Under the pieces are notes generated by a model. That model made no database searches and had not been told where the DNA came from. It was given only the letters and a program-made list of their open reading frames with translations. From Syntrophomonas sp. (lineage in GTDB: Bacteria; Bacillota; Syntrophomonadia; Syntrophomonadales; Syntrophomonadaceae): a stretch of DNA of 64,000 nucleotides. The DNA is taken from the NCBI GenBank assembly GCA_016841875.1, contig JAENYG010000002.1, positions 1-64,000 of the forward strand, given 5' to 3'. How positions within the stretch are numbered: position 1 is the stretch's first letter; each line of letters opens with the position of its first letter. This document shows, piece by piece, positions 16,300-53,178 of the stretch. A program made the position numbers and the translations under genes.

Positions 16300-16351
16300 A
16301 GCTATTGATCAGGGGGACGGTTCTCTTGATATACGGTAAAGGGGTGTAACG

Positions 16352-20635: not shown

Positions 20636-20757
20636 ATTCTACCCCCATTGGTATAATATTTCCCAAATCTACTTTTGCTATATTATGTTCTACCAAATTT
20701 AAATTTTATCATAGAAAGAGGGTAAGTGGAATTAAAGACTTTGTATACATTAGAAAA

Positions 20758-20816
20758 GGGACGCGGGGACAGGTACCTTGTCCCATTTAGGGACAAAGTA
20801 CCTGTCCCCGCGTCCC
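20758..20816. repeat. REP-like palindrome (full, two arms)
   Basis: Two 27 nt arms of the GGGACGCGGGGACAGG...TTGTCCC type in inverted orientation around a 5 nt loop (ATTTA), with one mismatch between arms. It belongs to the same family as 31864-31890, 32763-32833 and 48201-48272. It lies between carB and the lipoprotein gene and can form a very stable hairpin in either transcript. Confidence 0.8.
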
Positions 20817-20909
20817 TGTACCCGTGATTTAGCTTTCCAATACCCCCAGATTTTAGTATATAATTTAATAATAGACGTATGTCCAATATCAGTTGAGGAG
20901 GGGAACTTT

Positions 20910-21560
20910 ATGAATTGGGTTCACAGGTCAAATTGGACTGGGGTGTTGATTGTCGTACTGTTTACTCTGCTGATGTTTAGCCTGTCTGGATGCGGCAGCA
21001 GCGAAAAAACTGAAACCGCGGTGACAGAGAATCAAGCAACAGAGCAGGTCCAAGCAGACCCAAGCAGCAGTGATAAGACTGATCCAAGCGCAATAACAGA
21101 GACTGAAAATACCGATGTCAACAGTGGAGAAGCTGAACAAGAGATCGAAATAAAAAAAATGACCTTGAAAGAAGCATATCAGATATTGTGTGAAAATACA
21201 GGTGTGGATGACTTGAACTTGTACTCTTATACCGGGTTTTATGTGGATATAGAGGGAAAGTCAGACAATTTCAGTATAGTAGGTTATTCCAGCAGTAATC
21301 AATCAACTTATCAATTTGCCATCAGATCCGGCACAGTAAAGTTCAAGGAATATAATACGGTCGATCCAGTCGAAGATACGAACCTTCATGAAATTGATGC
21401 CTTTAAGGACTCGCCCCAGTTAGTACAGGAAGCAGTAGGGAAGTTGGGTAAATGGCCGGATGAAGGAGGATCGATCAGCTTACTGATAGAAAAACCAGAG
21501 GTTGAAGTAGGTGCATTGAAAACGGGTTACGGGTTGGTAAAATTAACGTATGTAAAATAG
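20910..21560 (+). CDS. Putative lipoprotein, unknown function
   Basis: A 216 aa protein with a lipoprotein signal: hydrophobic residues 10-25 and lipobox LSGC with Cys28. Residues ~29-75 are low-complexity, rich in Ser, Thr, Glu and Asp, a typical linker. The folded part (~78-216) is acidic and has no family I recognise. The frame is open up to 20778, through the REP palindrome, but the ATG at 20910 has a GAGGAGGGG ribosome binding site and gives the signal peptide, so it is the true start. It would be anchored on the outer face of the cell membrane. Confidence 0.8.
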   Translation: MNWVHRSNWTGVLIVVLFTLLMFSLSGCGSSEKTETAVTENQATEQVQADPSSSDKTDPSAITETENTDVNSGEAEQEIEIKKMTLKEAYQILCENTGVDDLNLYSYTGFYVDIEGKSDNFSIVGYSSSNQSTYQFAIRSGTVKFKEYNTVDPVEDTNLHEIDAFKDSPQLVQEAVGKLGKWPDEGGSISLLIEKPEVEVGALKTGYGLVKLTYVK

Positions 21561-21626
21561 TATATAGTCACAGTTTTATGTCTAGCAGTCATTCCCGAAC
21601 TGCGGACCGATGTCATTGGTGATATG

Positions 21627-22230: not shown

Positions 22231-22694
22231 TTAAGAAAACTCCTTTCGATTTTATATTCAGCAGCTGTTCTTTTCTGCTGTGCTTATATATTAACTTTCA
22301 ATTATGTCAAAAGTGTGTTTTGGATATTCTAATTTTGTGAACTTTATTTACACATAGATGAAACTAGGGGGTGCATTAGGGGTCCATTTCAGATACGGGC
22401 TAAGGAAGTGAACTGCTTATTCCTGCGAAGGTGTTTAAGTAGTGACCCTGATCCTGCGGGCCGCTTCTTGTTTAACACTTACATTATGATGGTTTCATAG
22501 CCAGTAATGCACGTATGGAATAAAAGCCAGGGCGTATAATAAGGGACAAGGAACCTGTTCCCTTGTTCCTTGCTTGATCTGGAAAGAGCTTTTTAAAGTA
22601 TAACTGTTAATAAAATATTGTGATCTCATTCAGGAAGAAAGGATCCTGGTTTATGCCTAACGTTTAAGTCTAAGTTGGCTGGAAATATTTAAAA
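22231..22694. other. Intergenic with a degenerate REP half
   Basis: Some 460 bp between two minus-strand genes. The right half of the promoter region for the Gly-rich gene lies here. A decayed REP half-palindrome (AGGGACAAGGAACCTGTTCC...) sits at 22543-22570. No ORF or RNA gene was recognised. Confidence 0.5.
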
Positions 22695-27600: not shown

Positions 27601-28290
27601 ATGCCTACAATATTAATAGCAGATGACAATCAACAGATTACCTCGATTTTAGGGGAATATGCTAAAAAAGAAGGTTATACTGCCATAATCGCCCTGGATG
27701 GCCTGGATGCTCTGGAACAGTTTAAACGAAAAAATCCGGATATAGTATTGCTTGATGTTATGATGCCTAAAATGGACGGCTTTGAGCTCTGCCGAGAAAT
27801 ACGGAAAACTTCCAATGTACCAATTATCATGGTTACTGCCCGGGGTGAGGATTTTGAAAAAATTATGGGACTGGATATTGGTGCTGATGATTATATCGTG
27901 AAACCTTTTTCACCGCCTGAAGTTATGGCCCGGGTGAGGGCCATACTGCGCAGAATAGAGAGGGAAGACCGGGCGGCCCAGCTATTCAGCTTTGATAACT
28001 TATCGATAAATCTTGAAGACTATACAGCTGCTATTGATGGGATCAATATATCACTGACCAAAAAAGAAATTGAGTTATTGTGGACTTTGGCCAGTCATAA
28101 AAACAAGGTTTTTTCCCGGGATAACCTTTTAGACAGCCTTTGGGGGCATGACTATTTTGGGGATAGCCGTACCGTAGACTCCCATATAAAAAGACTCCGA
28201 GCCAAACTAGATGCATGTGAGCACGATAATTGGGAGATAAAAACTATATGGGGGGTTGGCTACAAGTTTGAGGTAAAAACTGATGTTTAA
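27601..28290 (+). CDS. OmpR/PhoB-family response regulator
   Basis: A 229 aa two-component regulator. The receiver domain (1-~118) has the acidic pair D8-D9, phospho-acceptor D52 in LLDVMMP, T79 and K101 in VKPF. The C-terminal winged helix (~128-225) ends in KTIWGVGYKFE, typical of OmpR/PhoB proteins. A TGGAGG site precedes the ATG. The sensor kinase gene overlaps its end by 8 bp, so they are partners. No target is evident; the neighbours are acyl-CoA genes on either side. Confidence 0.95.
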   Translation: MPTILIADDNQQITSILGEYAKKEGYTAIIALDGLDALEQFKRKNPDIVLLDVMMPKMDGFELCREIRKTSNVPIIMVTARGEDFEKIMGLDIGADDYIVKPFSPPEVMARVRAILRRIEREDRAAQLFSFDNLSINLEDYTAAIDGINISLTKKEIELLWTLASHKNKVFSRDNLLDSLWGHDYFGDSRTVDSHIKRLRAKLDACEHDNWEIKTIWGVGYKFEVKTDV

Positions 28291-29743
28291 GAATAGAATC
28301 GCATTAAAACTGTCATCATATTTTGCATTAGCACTATTGGTATTTTCTTTGATAATAGGCAGCGTCTTTTTAATCCTTTTCAAAAACTATACTGTGGAAC
28401 TGCACCAGGCCGATCTGGAAAAGAGAGCAGCCGGTATAGCCCAGACCCTGTCGGAATTTACATCTGCCAATGGCAGGCAGGGTGGTTATGGTGCATATCT
28501 TCGATTTATAGATGATATTGCTATGACCGATGTTTGGATTGTTGACCAAAACCGGGATCTTATCACCAGGGGACCGGGTATGGGAGGGATGGGAAAAGAA
28601 TATGTATACTCGGATCTGCCTGCCGATGCAGACAGCGTGATATCAGACGTATTCACCGGTAAAACCGCATTTAGCGAAGATTTCAGCACTTTGCTTAATG
28701 CGCCCACCCTGACCGTGGGCACACCTATTATAGCCGCTAACGGGGAAATAACAGGGGTGGTATTGCTGCATTCACCGATCGAAGGTATAAACAAGGCCAT
28801 ATCGGATGGTTTTACCGCCCTGGCCCTAAGTATCCTGGCGGCCCTCTTGATTGCATTTTCACTATCAATTGGATTTTCTATAAGCTTTACCAGGCCTCTG
28901 AACCGGATGAAAAGCACTGCCTTGCTTCTGGCTGATGGCGATTATACCGCTCAGACCCAGATACAACAAAATGATGAAATCGGTGACTTGGCGGTTACCC
29001 TGGACATACTGAGCGACCGTCTCAAACAGGCCAGCCAGGATAGTGCCAGGCTGGAACAGCTGCGGCGGGACTTTGTAGCCAACATTTCACATGAGCTTAG
29101 AACACCTATAACAGTAATCCGAGGTTCATTGGAAGCTTTGTATGATGGAGTTGTAACTGACCCGGAACAGGTAAAAAGCTACCAGCAGCAGATCATGTTT
29201 GAAGCTTTATTTCTGCAAAGGCTGGTGGGCGATCTGCTTGATTTGTCCCGACTGCAGAATACTGATTTTGAAATAGAAAAACAGGAAATAAATATGGCTG
29301 AAGTAATAGATGATGTTACCCGCAGCATGACTTCTATTGCTGATGATAAAGGGATAAGGATGGAAACAACAAAAGATAACAGCCTGGAACATATCTGGGG
29401 TGACTACGGCCGGCTCAGGCAAATGCTGATGATCTTGCTGGATAATGCGGTAAAATTTTCGCCTGAAAATGGAGTTGTAAAGCTGAACCTGACCAATCGG
29501 GTATTATCTATAACCGACAATGGAGTAGGTATAGCAGAGGAAAACCTGCCCTATATCTTCGACCGCTTTCATACATCTCGTTCTGAGCATAACAAAAGCG
29601 GTACTGGTTTAGGGCTGGCTATTGCCAAACAGATTGCCGACCGACATGATATCGATATCATAGTAGAAAGCGAGCCGGATGTAAAAACCGAGTTCAGGTT
29701 ATACTTTACCGGAATAACGAATACAACCTCGGGGACAAAGTGA
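28283..29743 (+). CDS. Sensor histidine kinase
   Basis: A 486 aa membrane kinase: first span ~13-34, an extracytoplasmic sensor region ~35-175, second span ~178-202, HAMP to ~255, HisKA with the phosphorylated H270 in NISHELRTP, and an HATPase_c domain with N-box DNAVKFSPENG, SITDNGVGI and SGTGLGLAIAK. All catalytic motifs are intact. The sensor region has no domain I recognise. Translation is coupled to the response regulator by overlap. It autophosphorylates and passes phosphate to D52 of its partner. Confidence 0.93.
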   Translation: MFKNRIALKLSSYFALALLVFSLIIGSVFLILFKNYTVELHQADLEKRAAGIAQTLSEFTSANGRQGGYGAYLRFIDDIAMTDVWIVDQNRDLITRGPGMGGMGKEYVYSDLPADADSVISDVFTGKTAFSEDFSTLLNAPTLTVGTPIIAANGEITGVVLLHSPIEGINKAISDGFTALALSILAALLIAFSLSIGFSISFTRPLNRMKSTALLLADGDYTAQTQIQQNDEIGDLAVTLDILSDRLKQASQDSARLEQLRRDFVANISHELRTPITVIRGSLEALYDGVVTDPEQVKSYQQQIMFEALFLQRLVGDLLDLSRLQNTDFEIEKQEINMAEVIDDVTRSMTSIADDKGIRMETTKDNSLEHIWGDYGRLRQMLMILLDNAVKFSPENGVVKLNLTNRVLSITDNGVGIAEENLPYIFDRFHTSRSEHNKSGTGLGLAIAKQIADRHDIDIIVESEPDVKTEFRLYFTGITNTTSGTK

Positions 29744-30018: not shown

Positions 30019-31362
30019 TTATGCCAACCTGTTGCTTCTAAGCCAAATTTTCATTTTACCGGCTTCCTTGATAAGTTCATCTCTGAAATCTGGATGAGCG
30101 ATGCTTATCAGTGCCTCAGCCCGTTCCCAGGTAGATTTGCCTTTGAGCTGGATCACACCGTATTCGGTTACTACATAGAAGTTAACCGCCCTGTGCAGCG
30201 TTACTATCGTTCCGGGACTCAGTGTAGGCCTGATCCTGGAGGCTATATTACCGTTGGCATCCTTGTAAGTGGAGGTCAGGCAGATGAACCCTTTCCCGCC
30301 TCTGGATCTAAATGAACCTGAGATGAAATCTAACTGTCCACCGGTTCCTGAAATGTGTCTGATACCGGAAGCCTCGGAAGCCACCTGGCCATAGAGATCA
30401 ACTTCCAGAGCATTGTTTATCGCCATCACGTTATCATTTTGTCCAATTATGTATGGGTCATTGGTATAGCCCACCGGGTAAATGGCACAAACCGGATTTT
30501 CATCCATAAAATCATATAGTTTATTGCTTCCCATAGCAAAAGTGTAAACCATCTTACCTTTGTCCAGTGTTTTATAGACTCCGGAAATACGTCCGGCTTC
30601 ATACATATCTACAAAGGAGTCAACCAACATTTCAGTGTGCACCCCTAAATCTTTCAAATCGGATTGAGCAATCATTGCTCCTATGGCATTGGGCATAGCT
30701 CCAATTCCCAATTGCAAACAGGCTCGGTTTGGGATTTCCTTCATCACCATCGCAGCAACCTTTTTATCTACCTCACTTATAGGAACTTCAGGCAGCTGAA
30801 TGAGCGGCAGGTTGTGTCCTTCGACGATGTAATCAATTTCGGATAAGTGGATCGATTCACTGTTTCCACCCAGACACTTGGGAACGGACGTATTTACCTC
30901 GGCGATAACAATCCTGGCAGCTTTGGAAAAGGTTCGAGTTACTGAATTGGAAGTTCCCAGGTTAAAATAACCATGCTTATCCATGGGGGTAACCATAATC
31001 ATGGCTATATCAACAGGAACATACCCTCTATCATAAATAGTAACTGCCTCATTATAGGTTACGGGGATGTAGTTGCATAAATCTTCCTCATGCAGTTTCC
31101 GGCTGGCTCCAGAGAAATGCCAATCGTTGTATATGAAGTGTTTTCTTTCCGGATCTGCCAACACTGCCTGAGGAGGAAAGGGACAGGCGGTTGTTCTGAT
31201 CAGTACATCATGAAGTTCCTCTTTCCTGCGGGCCAGGGCAGAATCCAGGTATATAGAGTTCATCATGAATTCTCCATAGTGAACAAGATCCCCTGATTTT
31301 ACTGCCTTCACTGCCTCATCGACTGGAACAAGTTTGCGCTGGTATTCTTCAATGTAATTCAT
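30019..31362 (-). CDS. Acetyl-CoA hydrolase/transferase, butyryl-CoA:acetate CoA-transferase type
   Basis: A 447 aa family I CoA-transferase. The N-terminal domain contains [18 protein letters not shown], the hinge [16 protein letters not shown] carries the GxGxxPxA motif, and the C-terminal part has [16 protein letters not shown] and [11 protein letters not shown]. These features fit butyryl-CoA:acetate or related 4-hydroxybutyrate CoA-transferases, which move CoA between acetyl-CoA and short fatty acids. In a syntrophic oxidiser this would activate butyrate. An AGGAAGG site precedes the ATG. It is about 35% diverged in look from the CoA-transferase at 24420, so the two likely have different acids. 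Single gene. Confidence 0.9.
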
Positions 31363-31806: not shown

Positions 31807-31863
31807 GGCAGGCTAACCAATCACCTGCCCGAAACAATGTAATCTGCATATCATAGCTCCGCT

Positions 31864-31890
31864 GGGACACGGGGACAGGTCCCTTGTCCC
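31864..31890. repeat. REP-like palindrome, single arm
   Basis: One 27 nt arm of the GGGACACGGGGACAGG...TTGTCCC family, itself partly palindromic, about 200 bp left of the RAYT remnant. With the full palindrome at 32763-32833 it flanks that gene on both sides. Confidence 0.8.
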
Positions 31891-32087
31891 ACTTTTTTGG
31901 TCCCTGCTTGATGACATTTTTGCACACTATTTTCGAGAAATAAACTCCAATCATATACTAAAAAATGCATTAATTAACAGGAATTTACAATATTGACGCA
32001 GAAGAATTTATGATAGCGAAAAGCCATACCGAGGATTATATTGTATCTTTGTGCAGCTAATCAGTTTATTAGTGTTGAGGTGATAAC

Positions 32088-32760
32088 ATGTCAAGGCAGG
32101 CTCGCAGGAAAAGCAACAGTGGTATATATCATTTGATGCTACGGGGGGTAAATGGACAGAAGGTATTTGAGGATGAATATGATTGCAGAAGAATCATTGA
32201 GACTATTCATTATTATAAACCGATAAGCAAGTACCAGGTGTATGCTTACTGTCTTATGAGTAATCATATTCATTTATTGCTCAGGGAGACCGAGGAATCT
32301 ATATCCCAGGCCATCAAGAGAATAAGCAGCAGCTATGTATTCTGGTATAATAAAAAATATCACCGCAAACCCCGCGAAAGCAGGAATAACTAAGGATATA
32401 GAGAAATACCGATGGAGCAGTTACACAGAATATTTGGATACTCCTATAATGACTGATGTAGATTTCGCTCTAGATATGTTTTCAACGGATAGAAACAAAG
32501 CAGTAGATTTATTTAAATCGTATAATAATGAAAACAATGACGATCAATGTATGGAATATGCTGCAAAACTTAATTTATCTGATCAAGAGGTTATTGAATT
32601 TCTAAATGAGCTAGGTTTTGTTAATTTAAGTGAAATAACCAGGCTTGAAAAAGGCCAGCGAGATCAAGTTATAAAGAAGATTAAGAATATAAATGGTGTT
32701 AACATAAGGCAAATAGCAAGATTAACGGGAATTTCGAAAAGTGTAATTGATAGAATATGA
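32088..32760 (+). pseudogene. REP-associated tyrosine transposase (RAYT), internally deleted
   Basis: The 5' part encodes MSRQARRKSNSGIYHLMLRG and the HUH motif SNHIHLLL (residues ~62-69), hallmarks of RAYT/Y1 transposases. At about 32365-32385 the frame jumps: NKKYHR is followed, in another frame, by NPAKAGITKDIEKYRWSSYTEY and the C-terminal DnaA-like helix region. In intact RAYTs some 30-40 residues, including the catalytic Tyr of RYIHxNP, lie at this point, so a deletion plus frameshift has removed the active site. The second fragment runs to 32760. REP palindromes flank the gene, as expected for the source of the dispersed repeats. Not active. Confidence 0.88.
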
Positions 32761-32762
32761 GG

Positions 32763-32833
32763 TGGGACACGGGGACAGGTCCCTTGTCCCAATAAGTAAT
32801 GAAGCGGGACAAGGGACCTGTCCCCGTGTCCCA
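32763..32833. repeat. REP-like palindrome (full, two arms)
   Basis: Two perfectly complementary 28 nt arms of the TGGGACACGGGGACAGG type around a 15 nt spacer, starting 3 bp after the RAYT stop codon. It is the best preserved copy and probably the right end of the RAYT element. Confidence 0.88.
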
Positions 32834-32883: not shown

Positions 32884-33654
32884 ATGCTGGGTGCAATTAT
32901 TGGAGATATTATCGGGTCGGTTTATGAATGGAGCCCGACAAAAACTACAGCCTTTCCTCTTTTTTCTCCTGATTCAAGATTTACTGATGATACAGTACTT
33001 ACAGTGGCAGTTGCTGATGCTGTCTTGTACCAAAAAGACTATGCCCGCACCATCTGGGAATATGGCAGGAAGTATCCCAGGGCTGGCTATGGAAGGTCTT
33101 TTAAGGGGTGGCTGAAAGGTAGGGACCTTCTTCCCTATGGCAGTTATGGTAATGGTTCAGCCATGCGGGTCAGTCCAGTAGGTTTTGCATTTGACAGCAC
33201 AGATGAGGTATTGCTTGAAGCAGCCCGGACTGCCGAGGTAACCCATAACCATCCAGAAGGAATCAAGGGAGCACAGGCCGCAGCTCTGGCCATTTTGCTG
33301 GCCCGGCAGGGTAACAATAAGATGGAAATAAAGAAGCAGATCGAAAGCCGCTTCGCTTATGACCTGAGCAGAACCCTGGATGAGATCCGGCCGGATTATG
33401 GCTTTGATGTAAGCTGCCAGGGGTCAGTGCCAGAGGCCATCATTGCCTTTTTGGAGTCTCTTAACTACGAGGATGCCATTCGCCAGGCTATTTCATTAGG
33501 GGGCGATAGCGATACTATGGCCTGTATTGCAGGAGGGATTGCCCAGGCCTTCTATAAAGATATTCCCCGGCACATTGTGAGTCAGGCCCGATTACTGCTG
33601 GATCCTGATCTGCTTAGAATCATAGACCAGTTCTCGGAACGATATGGCCAATAG
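32884..33654 (+). CDS. ADP-ribosylglycohydrolase (DraG-like)
   Basis: A 256 aa protein of the ADP-ribosylglycohydrolase family (usual ~250-300 aa). It has the start GAIIGDIIGSVYE, the metal-binding FTDDTVLT (~38-45) and the closing GGDSDTMACIAGGIA (~206-220), so both Mg sites are complete. It would cleave ADP-ribose from a protein or another acceptor. In nitrogen fixers DraG acts on nitrogenase reductase, but no nif gene or ADP-ribosyltransferase is present here, so the target is unknown. An AAGGGAAGGA site precedes the ATG. Monocistronic, next to the RAYT remnant. Confidence 0.9.
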   Translation: MLGAIIGDIIGSVYEWSPTKTTAFPLFSPDSRFTDDTVLTVAVADAVLYQKDYARTIWEYGRKYPRAGYGRSFKGWLKGRDLLPYGSYGNGSAMRVSPVGFAFDSTDEVLLEAARTAEVTHNHPEGIKGAQAAALAILLARQGNNKMEIKKQIESRFAYDLSRTLDEIRPDYGFDVSCQGSVPEAIIAFLESLNYEDAIRQAISLGGDSDTMACIAGGIAQAFYKDIPRHIVSQARLLLDPDLLRIIDQFSERYGQ

Positions 33655-44576: not shown

Positions 44577-44705
44577 TGCTATCCTTCATCTGCGACAGGG
44601 GGCCAGGTTCCTTATCTAATTGAAGTAGGAGTGGATTAGGAATAAAGAAGGAGTATAATATAGCTTATATTTGTAATGCGAAATTATATACGAGGCGGGA
44701 TTATA

Positions 44706-48200: not shown

Positions 48201-48272
48201 TGGGACACGGGGACAGGTTCCTTGTCCCACCCTATATTCTTAAGTGGGACAAGGAACCTGTCCCCGTGTCCC
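48201..48272. repeat. REP-like palindrome inside the 3' end of an HD-domain gene
   Basis: Two ~29 nt arms of the GGGACACGGGGACAGGTTCC type around a 13-14 nt spacer. The right arm is translated on the minus strand as the last residues of the HD-domain protein (DTGTGSLSH) and the spacer supplies its stop codon. Confidence 0.85.
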
Positions 48273-53001: not shown

Positions 53002-53178
53002 CATGTAAGCCGTTTTTGTACTATTTTTGAGGGTTTTGGAACCGTCCCCACGGGGGTCTTTTTCCAAAGTATTAAGCACGGTTATGATGTTCCCGGTTTT
53101 GGCGCCCGGGATGGAGGTACCCTGCCAAAGCGGCATACCCGAGCCGTGCAGGGAAGCCTTAGAATAGATCGGAATAAT

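Follow-up and report, generated by a model that had tools for sequence, protein, structure and literature searches.

Structure of the locus

The window, i.e. the whole 64,000-nt stretch of a Syntrophomonas sp. contig that was analysed here, contains the remnant of a gene for a Y1/HUH REP-associated tyrosine transposase (32088-32760). The remnant carries one frameshifting deletion and is bracketed by GGGACACGGGGACAGGTYCCTTGTCCC hairpins. The following features are relevant:

20758..20816: dispersed REPIN with stem GGGACG in both arms, located at the end of synteny with congener G015
22543..22569, minus strand: possible degenerate single hairpin of the GGGACA family, 3 mismatches
28283..29743, plus strand: histidine kinase, upstream synteny anchor common to congener G016
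31863..31891, plus strand: single upstream REP/TIR hairpin TGGGACACGGGGACAGGTCCCTTGTCCCA, inverted partner absent (motif scan, fold)
32088..32393, plus strand: N-terminal part of the broken Y1 transposase, HUH motif NHIH kept (Pfam Y1_Tnp)
32335..32760, plus strand: C-terminal part of the Y1 transposase, shifted to another frame, with weak HTH matches at its end
32366..32367, plus strand: deletion junction, about 85 nt of the ortholog gone and frame shifted (comparison with the intact ortholog)
32763..32791, plus strand: downstream REP hairpin, left arm of an inverted pair (REPIN) (motif scan, fold)
32805..32833, minus strand: downstream REP hairpin, right arm of the inverted pair (motif scan, fold)
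32884..33654, plus strand: ADP-ribosylglycohydrolase, downstream synteny anchor
48202..48272: dispersed REPIN of the GGGACA family, about 70 nt past the pyruvate carboxylase stop codon

A CoA hydrolase/transferase-type gene (30019-31362, minus strand) lies between the kinase and the transposase; it is not found at this place in G016.

The open reading frame 32088-32393 matches Pfam Y1_Tnp (E 1.4e-11, profile positions 5-86 of 121). Apart from the deletion, the remnant is open without a further stop or frameshift. An intact ortholog with a full 255-aa frame is encoded in G016 (Syntrophomonas sp. BL5_bin.17, JAENZE010000007), where it has the same neighbours, histidine kinase and ADP-ribosylglycohydrolase. 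It is 82% identical to the window gene over the 93-aa N part, comprises the motifs NHIH and YIHQNP and is flanked on both sides by palindromes whose core is unchanged and whose stem differs in a compensatory manner (GGGCCA..TGGCCC). The segment lost at 32366/32367 corresponds to ortholog residues about 97-125 and comprises strand 106-110 as well as helix 113-124, in which Tyr122 is located. Since the Tyr of YIHQNP falls into this segment, the catalytic Tyr is absent from the window gene. Thus, three statements of the initial annotation hold: that the window contains a Y1 transposase fragment with an HIH motif, that a deletion took the stretch with the catalytic Tyr and that the palindromes flanking the fragment recur through the window (see below).

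The AlphaFold2 model of the ortholog (pLDDT 87.6) has extra helices at 144-254. Its best match among solved structures is 4ER8, E. coli TnpAREP with REP (E 1.3e-8, TM 0.76 by target). In a profile sequence alignment with the residue counted by hand, the lost Tyr aligns with Y115 of E. coli TnpAREP; Y115F is named as a catalytic mutant in the available part of PMC8266576. The C-terminal HTH of the ortholog is weak, with HTH_7 and HTH_23 at E about 0.003 and under the cut-off. On the curated model REP_Tyr_transpos (NF047646, cut-off 80 bits), the window fragment scores 36.3 bits, the ortholog 76.9 and two intact relatives from the window genome 78.4 (L032) and 92.4 (L033).

The remnant carries the signature of purifying selection: dN/dS is 0.10 (NG86) or 0.21 (YN00) for the N part (92 codons) and 0.29 (NG86) or 0.23 (YN00) for the C part (130 codons). 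In the second congener, G015, which by these loci is nearer to the window genome than G016 (87-92% vs 79-84%), the pyruvate carboxylase gene directly follows the kinase gene and the transposase is absent.

The hairpins form a dispersed REPIN family

The hairpin unit is an imperfect palindrome of 27-29 nt. In the window, the 16-mer GGGACACGGGGACAGG is exact at 31864, 32764, 32817 (minus strand) and 48202/48257 and has one mismatch at 20758/20801. Nine matches with up to three mismatches contrast with 0.18 expected (100 shuffles, maximum 2), which rules out a chance origin of the motif. One of them, at 44592, is probably due to chance, and another, at 22554, is possibly the degenerate single hairpin listed above. 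The units 32763-32833, 20758-20816 and 48202-48272 are inverted pairs, each of which forms a single extended hairpin when folded (DNA z -11 to -14). No REPIN was seen after the pyruvate carboxylase gene of G015, the counterpart of 48202..48272. Around the first dispersed REPIN, G015 lacks about 850 bp (20751-21596) at the corresponding position, which is also where homology with G014 and G016 ends.

In the whole genome (3.97 Mb), 55 matches to GGGACACGGGGACAGG with up to two mismatches were found vs 5 with a reversed control. Copies were counted with a pattern in which only the loop core GGGGACAGGTNCC was fixed and the 27-mer extracted. This yielded 47 copies in the window genome, 33 in G016, 7 in G015, 2 in G014 and 0 in G013; the reversed control gave 0 in every genome counted except for 1 in G015. 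The examined loci of the window genome comprise 6 unpaired units and 23 inverted pairs, whose arms are 5-24 nt apart. A REPIN typically combines a pair of REPs in inverted orientation, a short variable spacer and many intergenic copies, and the GGGACA family displays these hallmarks. All 23 paired copies are intergenic, 11 of them between tandem genes (++), 7 between convergent, 3 between divergent genes and 2 in the -- arrangement.

These hairpins could be ordinary intergenic elements under selection, such as bidirectional terminators or mRNA-end hairpins, with the transposase as a bystander. The exclusively intergenic location, the 18 of 23 pairs in tandem ++ or convergent +- settings, several of them only 2-7 nt past a stop codon, and the presence of several sites in different species agree with this. 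However, the same hairpins lie on both sides of the transposase gene, and from one species to another, gene and hairpins vary jointly. Some sites are vacant or missing altogether in relatives, and different transposase genes of one genome bear different stems. We consider a mere bystander role of the transposase rather unlikely.

Flanking palindromes among relatives and relation to known families

To place the gene among its relatives, 117 loci were examined; an ORF of 200 aa or more is present in 113, and the set was restricted to 104 distinct proteins. In these 104 genes, GGGGAC occurs in inverted-repeat orientation in 66 of 94 upstream and 66 of 103 downstream flanks. The opposite orientation was found 11 times upstream and 13 times downstream, and flanks at 400-1000 nt gave 2-8 occurrences. 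A stem score of at least 6 is reached at 70 of 179 GGGGAC sites vs a mean of 18.6 and a maximum of 27 when the 3' sides were dealt among loci. As only 43 of 83 loci with GGGGAC attain this score, the hairpin is common without being universal. Upstream, the core has the consensus CA(A/C)GGGGAC(G/A)G(T/G)TTCT..TG, and the outer stem is variable. GGGACA/GGGGACAGG palindromes also lie on both sides of L042 and L070, two intact relatives that are more distant. Because intact relatives bear palindromes with the same core on both sides, the palindromes are assigned to the transposase lineage, in agreement with the initial annotation.

The same annotation had termed the gene a RAYT. The REP-type Y1 transposase stands, but the gene does not belong to the classical RAYTs; TnpAY1 subclass 2.1 / TIRYT (also RAYT group 1) is the better fit, based on the protein length, Y-x-x-x-NP, the weak C-terminal HTH, GGGGWSAS inverted repeats and the lack of GTAG. 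The Y1 HUH core NH[VIYF]H plus Y-x-x-x-NP is complete in the ortholog, and the window gene keeps NHIH and lost the Y segment. GGGGWSAS is represented by GGGGACAG on both sides of the window gene and of the G016 ortholog. A classical GTAG-type RAYT (groups 2/3) was rejected, as the window hairpin lacks a 5' GTAG/GGAG foot and GTAG is not enriched in the flanks of relatives (39/94 near vs 48/92 far). A trait of those groups, dispersed cognate palindromes as inverted pairs, is present, with the 47 copies and 23 pairs mentioned above.

As far as the available parts of the respective papers allow a comparison, each known system shares some properties with the window system. TIRYTs/TIRtrons (Di Nocera et al., 2013; PMC3733652) likewise consist of a RAYT-like gene between inverted repeats that share GGGGWSAS, and of moderately abundant dispersed families with many dimers, some of them self-complementary. 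Unlike them, the window genome has several gene-family pairs with a common core and different stems. The words Clostridi- and Firmicutes are absent from the text of that paper. Subclass 2.1 (Quentin et al., 2018; PMC6006769) is characterized by NH[VIYF]H, Y-x-x-x-NP, a C-terminal HTH-like domain and a median length of 238 aa, compared to 255 aa in the ortholog. According to the part of that report at hand, neither automatic nor manual searches revealed REP-like sequences near subclass 2.1 genes, whereas here conserved-core palindromes flank most relatives. GTAG-tagged RAYT/REPIN systems from E. coli and Pseudomonas (PMC3116915, PMC8266576, both as far as available) resemble the window system in the HUH/Tyr fold (4ER8), inverted hairpin pairs, single distinct genes and vertical inheritance. 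In contrast to them, the window system is without a GTAG/GGAG foot and has a conserved core in the loop and a C-terminal extension. IS200/IS605 (TnpA subclass 1.1) shares the Y1 HUH fold and terminal hairpins, but carries Y-x-x-x-Q and an adjacent tnpB, in contrast to Y-x-x-x-NP (YIHQNP) and no neighbouring tnpB here. The neighbours of the window transposase are the CoA-transferase-type gene and the ADP-ribosylglycohydrolase gene; moreover, its dispersed hairpins outnumber the genes, and the copies are non-identical. Literature searches on RAYT/REPIN/TIRYT, Clostridia/Firmicutes, REP loss or concerted evolution and Syntrophomonas palindromes returned nothing closer than the papers cited here. 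Among the matches listed for the core GGGACGGTTC in published papers, none was, by title, on the present subject.

Other Y1 transposase genes of the same genome

The window genome contains 8 PF01797 genes, 7 of which are intact. All seven intact relatives have their own flanking palindromes, five of them with a GGGGAC core. The sister-core pattern GGGGACGGTTC has 85 copies in the genome and 0 in the reversed control; the dispersal count covers this core, and L035, L036 and L037 have other cores. The copies fall into the following stem families:

TGCGACA: 18 copies, flanks L033
TTGTCAA: 33 copies, flanks L034
AACC: 7 copies, flanks L032
GTGTCA: 6 copies, flanks L031
TGCAAG: 7 copies, and ATGACAG: 3 copies, no transposase gene seen in the genome
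other GGGGACGGTTC-core stems: 11 copies

The TGCAAG and ATGACAG families are possibly older orphans. Lone sites of the sister core are present in the window at 16303-16337 and 53025-53059, outside all counted families. The Y1 genes L035 and L036 have very different flanking palindromes (GGTGCCAGGCAC, GGTACCTGGTACC).

The initial annotation had concluded that the copies must depend on another RAYT or are fossils, and had suggested searching the genome for an intact gene with the same palindrome and counting the copies. The count is the 47 given above. The search was negative: no GGGACA/TGTCCC hairpin was detected within 1.5 kb of any of the seven intact genes at up to five substitutions, which rules out a partner with the same palindromes within this distance and leaves no visible replacement enzyme. 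Mobilisation in trans by one of the seven, with the family still active, would be aided by the fact that all are PF01797 members, five of them with a GGGGAC-core flanking palindrome, and by one GGGACA REPIN (C22:168567) located about 1.6 kb from the intact relative L034. However, since the dispersed families of four intact genes share the GGGGAC core and differ in the stem, none of these genes obviously serves the GGGACA family. An active family driven in trans is therefore unlikely, and the assertion that the copies must depend on another RAYT lacks support. An assembly or sequencing artefact that mimics a deletion in an intact gene would be compatible with a single lesion, a remainder that looks selected and a 90-contig assembly, but is very unlikely, as the lesion is a deletion of about 85 nt inside a 224-kb contig and not a single-base indel.

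Age and turnover of the repeats

Two master sequences account for 21 of the 47 copies in the window genome, and the mean pairwise difference is 1.53 of 27 positions. In G016, it amounts to 6.02 for all 33 copies and to 4.53 for the 25 CC-type copies. A more uniform family around a dead gene is expected if this gene was active until recently. Because of the purifying selection, the lack of another lesion and repeats more uniform than those of the congener, the death of the transposase looks recent relative to the split from G016. The same data (dN/dS 0.10-0.29, nearly uniform repeats) exclude the second option of the initial annotation, old fossils. In G016, where the gene is intact, the repeats are fewer and more degenerate, opposite to a simple rule that a family thrives when its gene is present.

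Several sites indicate turnover. An empty site was found in G016 for C30:166966 and a nearly empty one in G015 for C30:170527. At locus L160, an about 11-base near-direct repeat CAAAACCTYCT (2440-2470 and 2535-2560), which is possibly a target duplication, surrounds a REPIN that has only an empty site as its counterpart in G016. In G015 (L174, about 800-1501, C12), an array of about 700 bp of another palindrome family (GGGACATTCCT...GGTGTGTCCC) occupies the place of a single REPIN in the window genome and of nothing in G016. G016 has concentric or tandem hairpins with a REP inside a REPIN (L189, 2324-2437, and L072, downstream of the transposase), as if new copies were inserting into old ones. 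In the window genome, two differently-stemmed REPINs enclose about 2.4 kb (L159, 2621-4962; C27:135120-137461) that are missing at that place in G015 and partly present elsewhere in G015.

Stem changes at shared sites

A hairpin is present in both the window genome and G016 at seven positions. Five of them are anchored on both sides (S1, S2, S5, S6 and the downstream flank of the transposase) and two on one side (S4, locus L025, and the upstream flank of the transposase). Not included were L204/L194 and L165/L202, which align on one side, and Site B, which has a different palindrome pair in G016. In all seven, the stem differs: it is AC in the window genome and either CC (S2, S4, S6 and both transposase flanks) or AA (S1 and S5) in G016. 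The arms of each unit agree in stem. Between the window genome and G015, all four arms changed at S3, with flanks and spacer still alignable. Otherwise, the stems of G015 are mixed: S5 is kept, S1 and S6 are AT, S4 is AA and S7 is degenerate. Just past the transposase stop codon of G016, GGGACACG is followed by GGGCCA-type hairpins, which suggests that GGGACA is the older stem state and GGGACACG an old scar.

Within a unit, the arms differ at 0.26 of 27 positions in the window genome compared to 1.62 in shuffled pairs, and at 1.1 of 27 in G016 compared to 4.79 with right arms dealt among units (in both cases 0 of 10,000 shuffles as low). Quasi-palindrome correction by template switching is an alternative source of coordinated arm changes. 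It can explain part of the pattern: it would account for identical arms within a unit, but not for the same change at several positions. The shared sites with another stem suggest overwriting, though the sample is small, with seven sites from a single species pair. Hence, we propose only tentatively that the stem might be a lineage address that is rewritten in place genome-wide, with REPINs at old shared positions overwritten by the hairpin of the changed transposase. This could proceed via REP-targeted insertion or via arm-to-arm copying and spread, so that dispersed copies would evolve in concert with the gene.

In the available part of their paper, Nunvar et al. (2013; PMC3686654) describe different REP classes at orthologous genes and expect old copies to stay and decay. 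The REP orthogroups and the orthoswitch reported there resemble our case in that syntenic orthologs of related strains have palindromes of different classes at their flanks. The RAYT pseudogenisation discussed in the same source is similar, too, as gene loss is predicted to stop a repeat family. In contrast to the model of old repeats that stay and decay, the shared-site copies themselves carry another stem here.

Proposed mechanism

Taken together, the locus very probably represents a chromosomal, vertically kept TIRYT-type HUH/Y1 transposase with its own non-autonomous REPIN family that was orphaned by a recent deletion. This reading is built on the association between gene and palindromes, hairpin covariation, dispersed copies, synteny, the deletion and a selection signature that precedes it. 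By analogy with E. coli TnpAREP, the intact enzyme would bind one folded single strand of the hairpin and might read the conserved loop (GGGGACAGGTYCC) together with the lineage-specific stem. The Tyr of Y-x-x-x-NP would cut, and the hairpin pair could be moved or copied into intergenic sites; catalysis and strand choice are modelled on that same enzyme. The dispersed copies were presumably made by the window gene. REPIN movement may be reflected in copy patterns and in absent or empty sites in relatives. One frameshifting deletion, apparently recent, has removed the Tyr-bearing helix and thereby very probably just orphaned the roughly 47 hairpins, which form a young and uniform family.

Conclusions and perspectives

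The general kind of system is already known, and the clostridial member is new. Its clostridial setting, several stem-coded pairs in one genome and possible rewriting at shared sites make it worth following. Group-1/TIRYT transposases, which were described as being without REPs, are here accompanied by REPs in Clostridia. Several gene-repeat pairs in one genome with a common loop core and different stems constitute a natural panel for what the enzyme reads. With a freshly broken gene, a uniform family and an intact syntenic ortholog, repeat decay after the loss of a transposase becomes directly testable.
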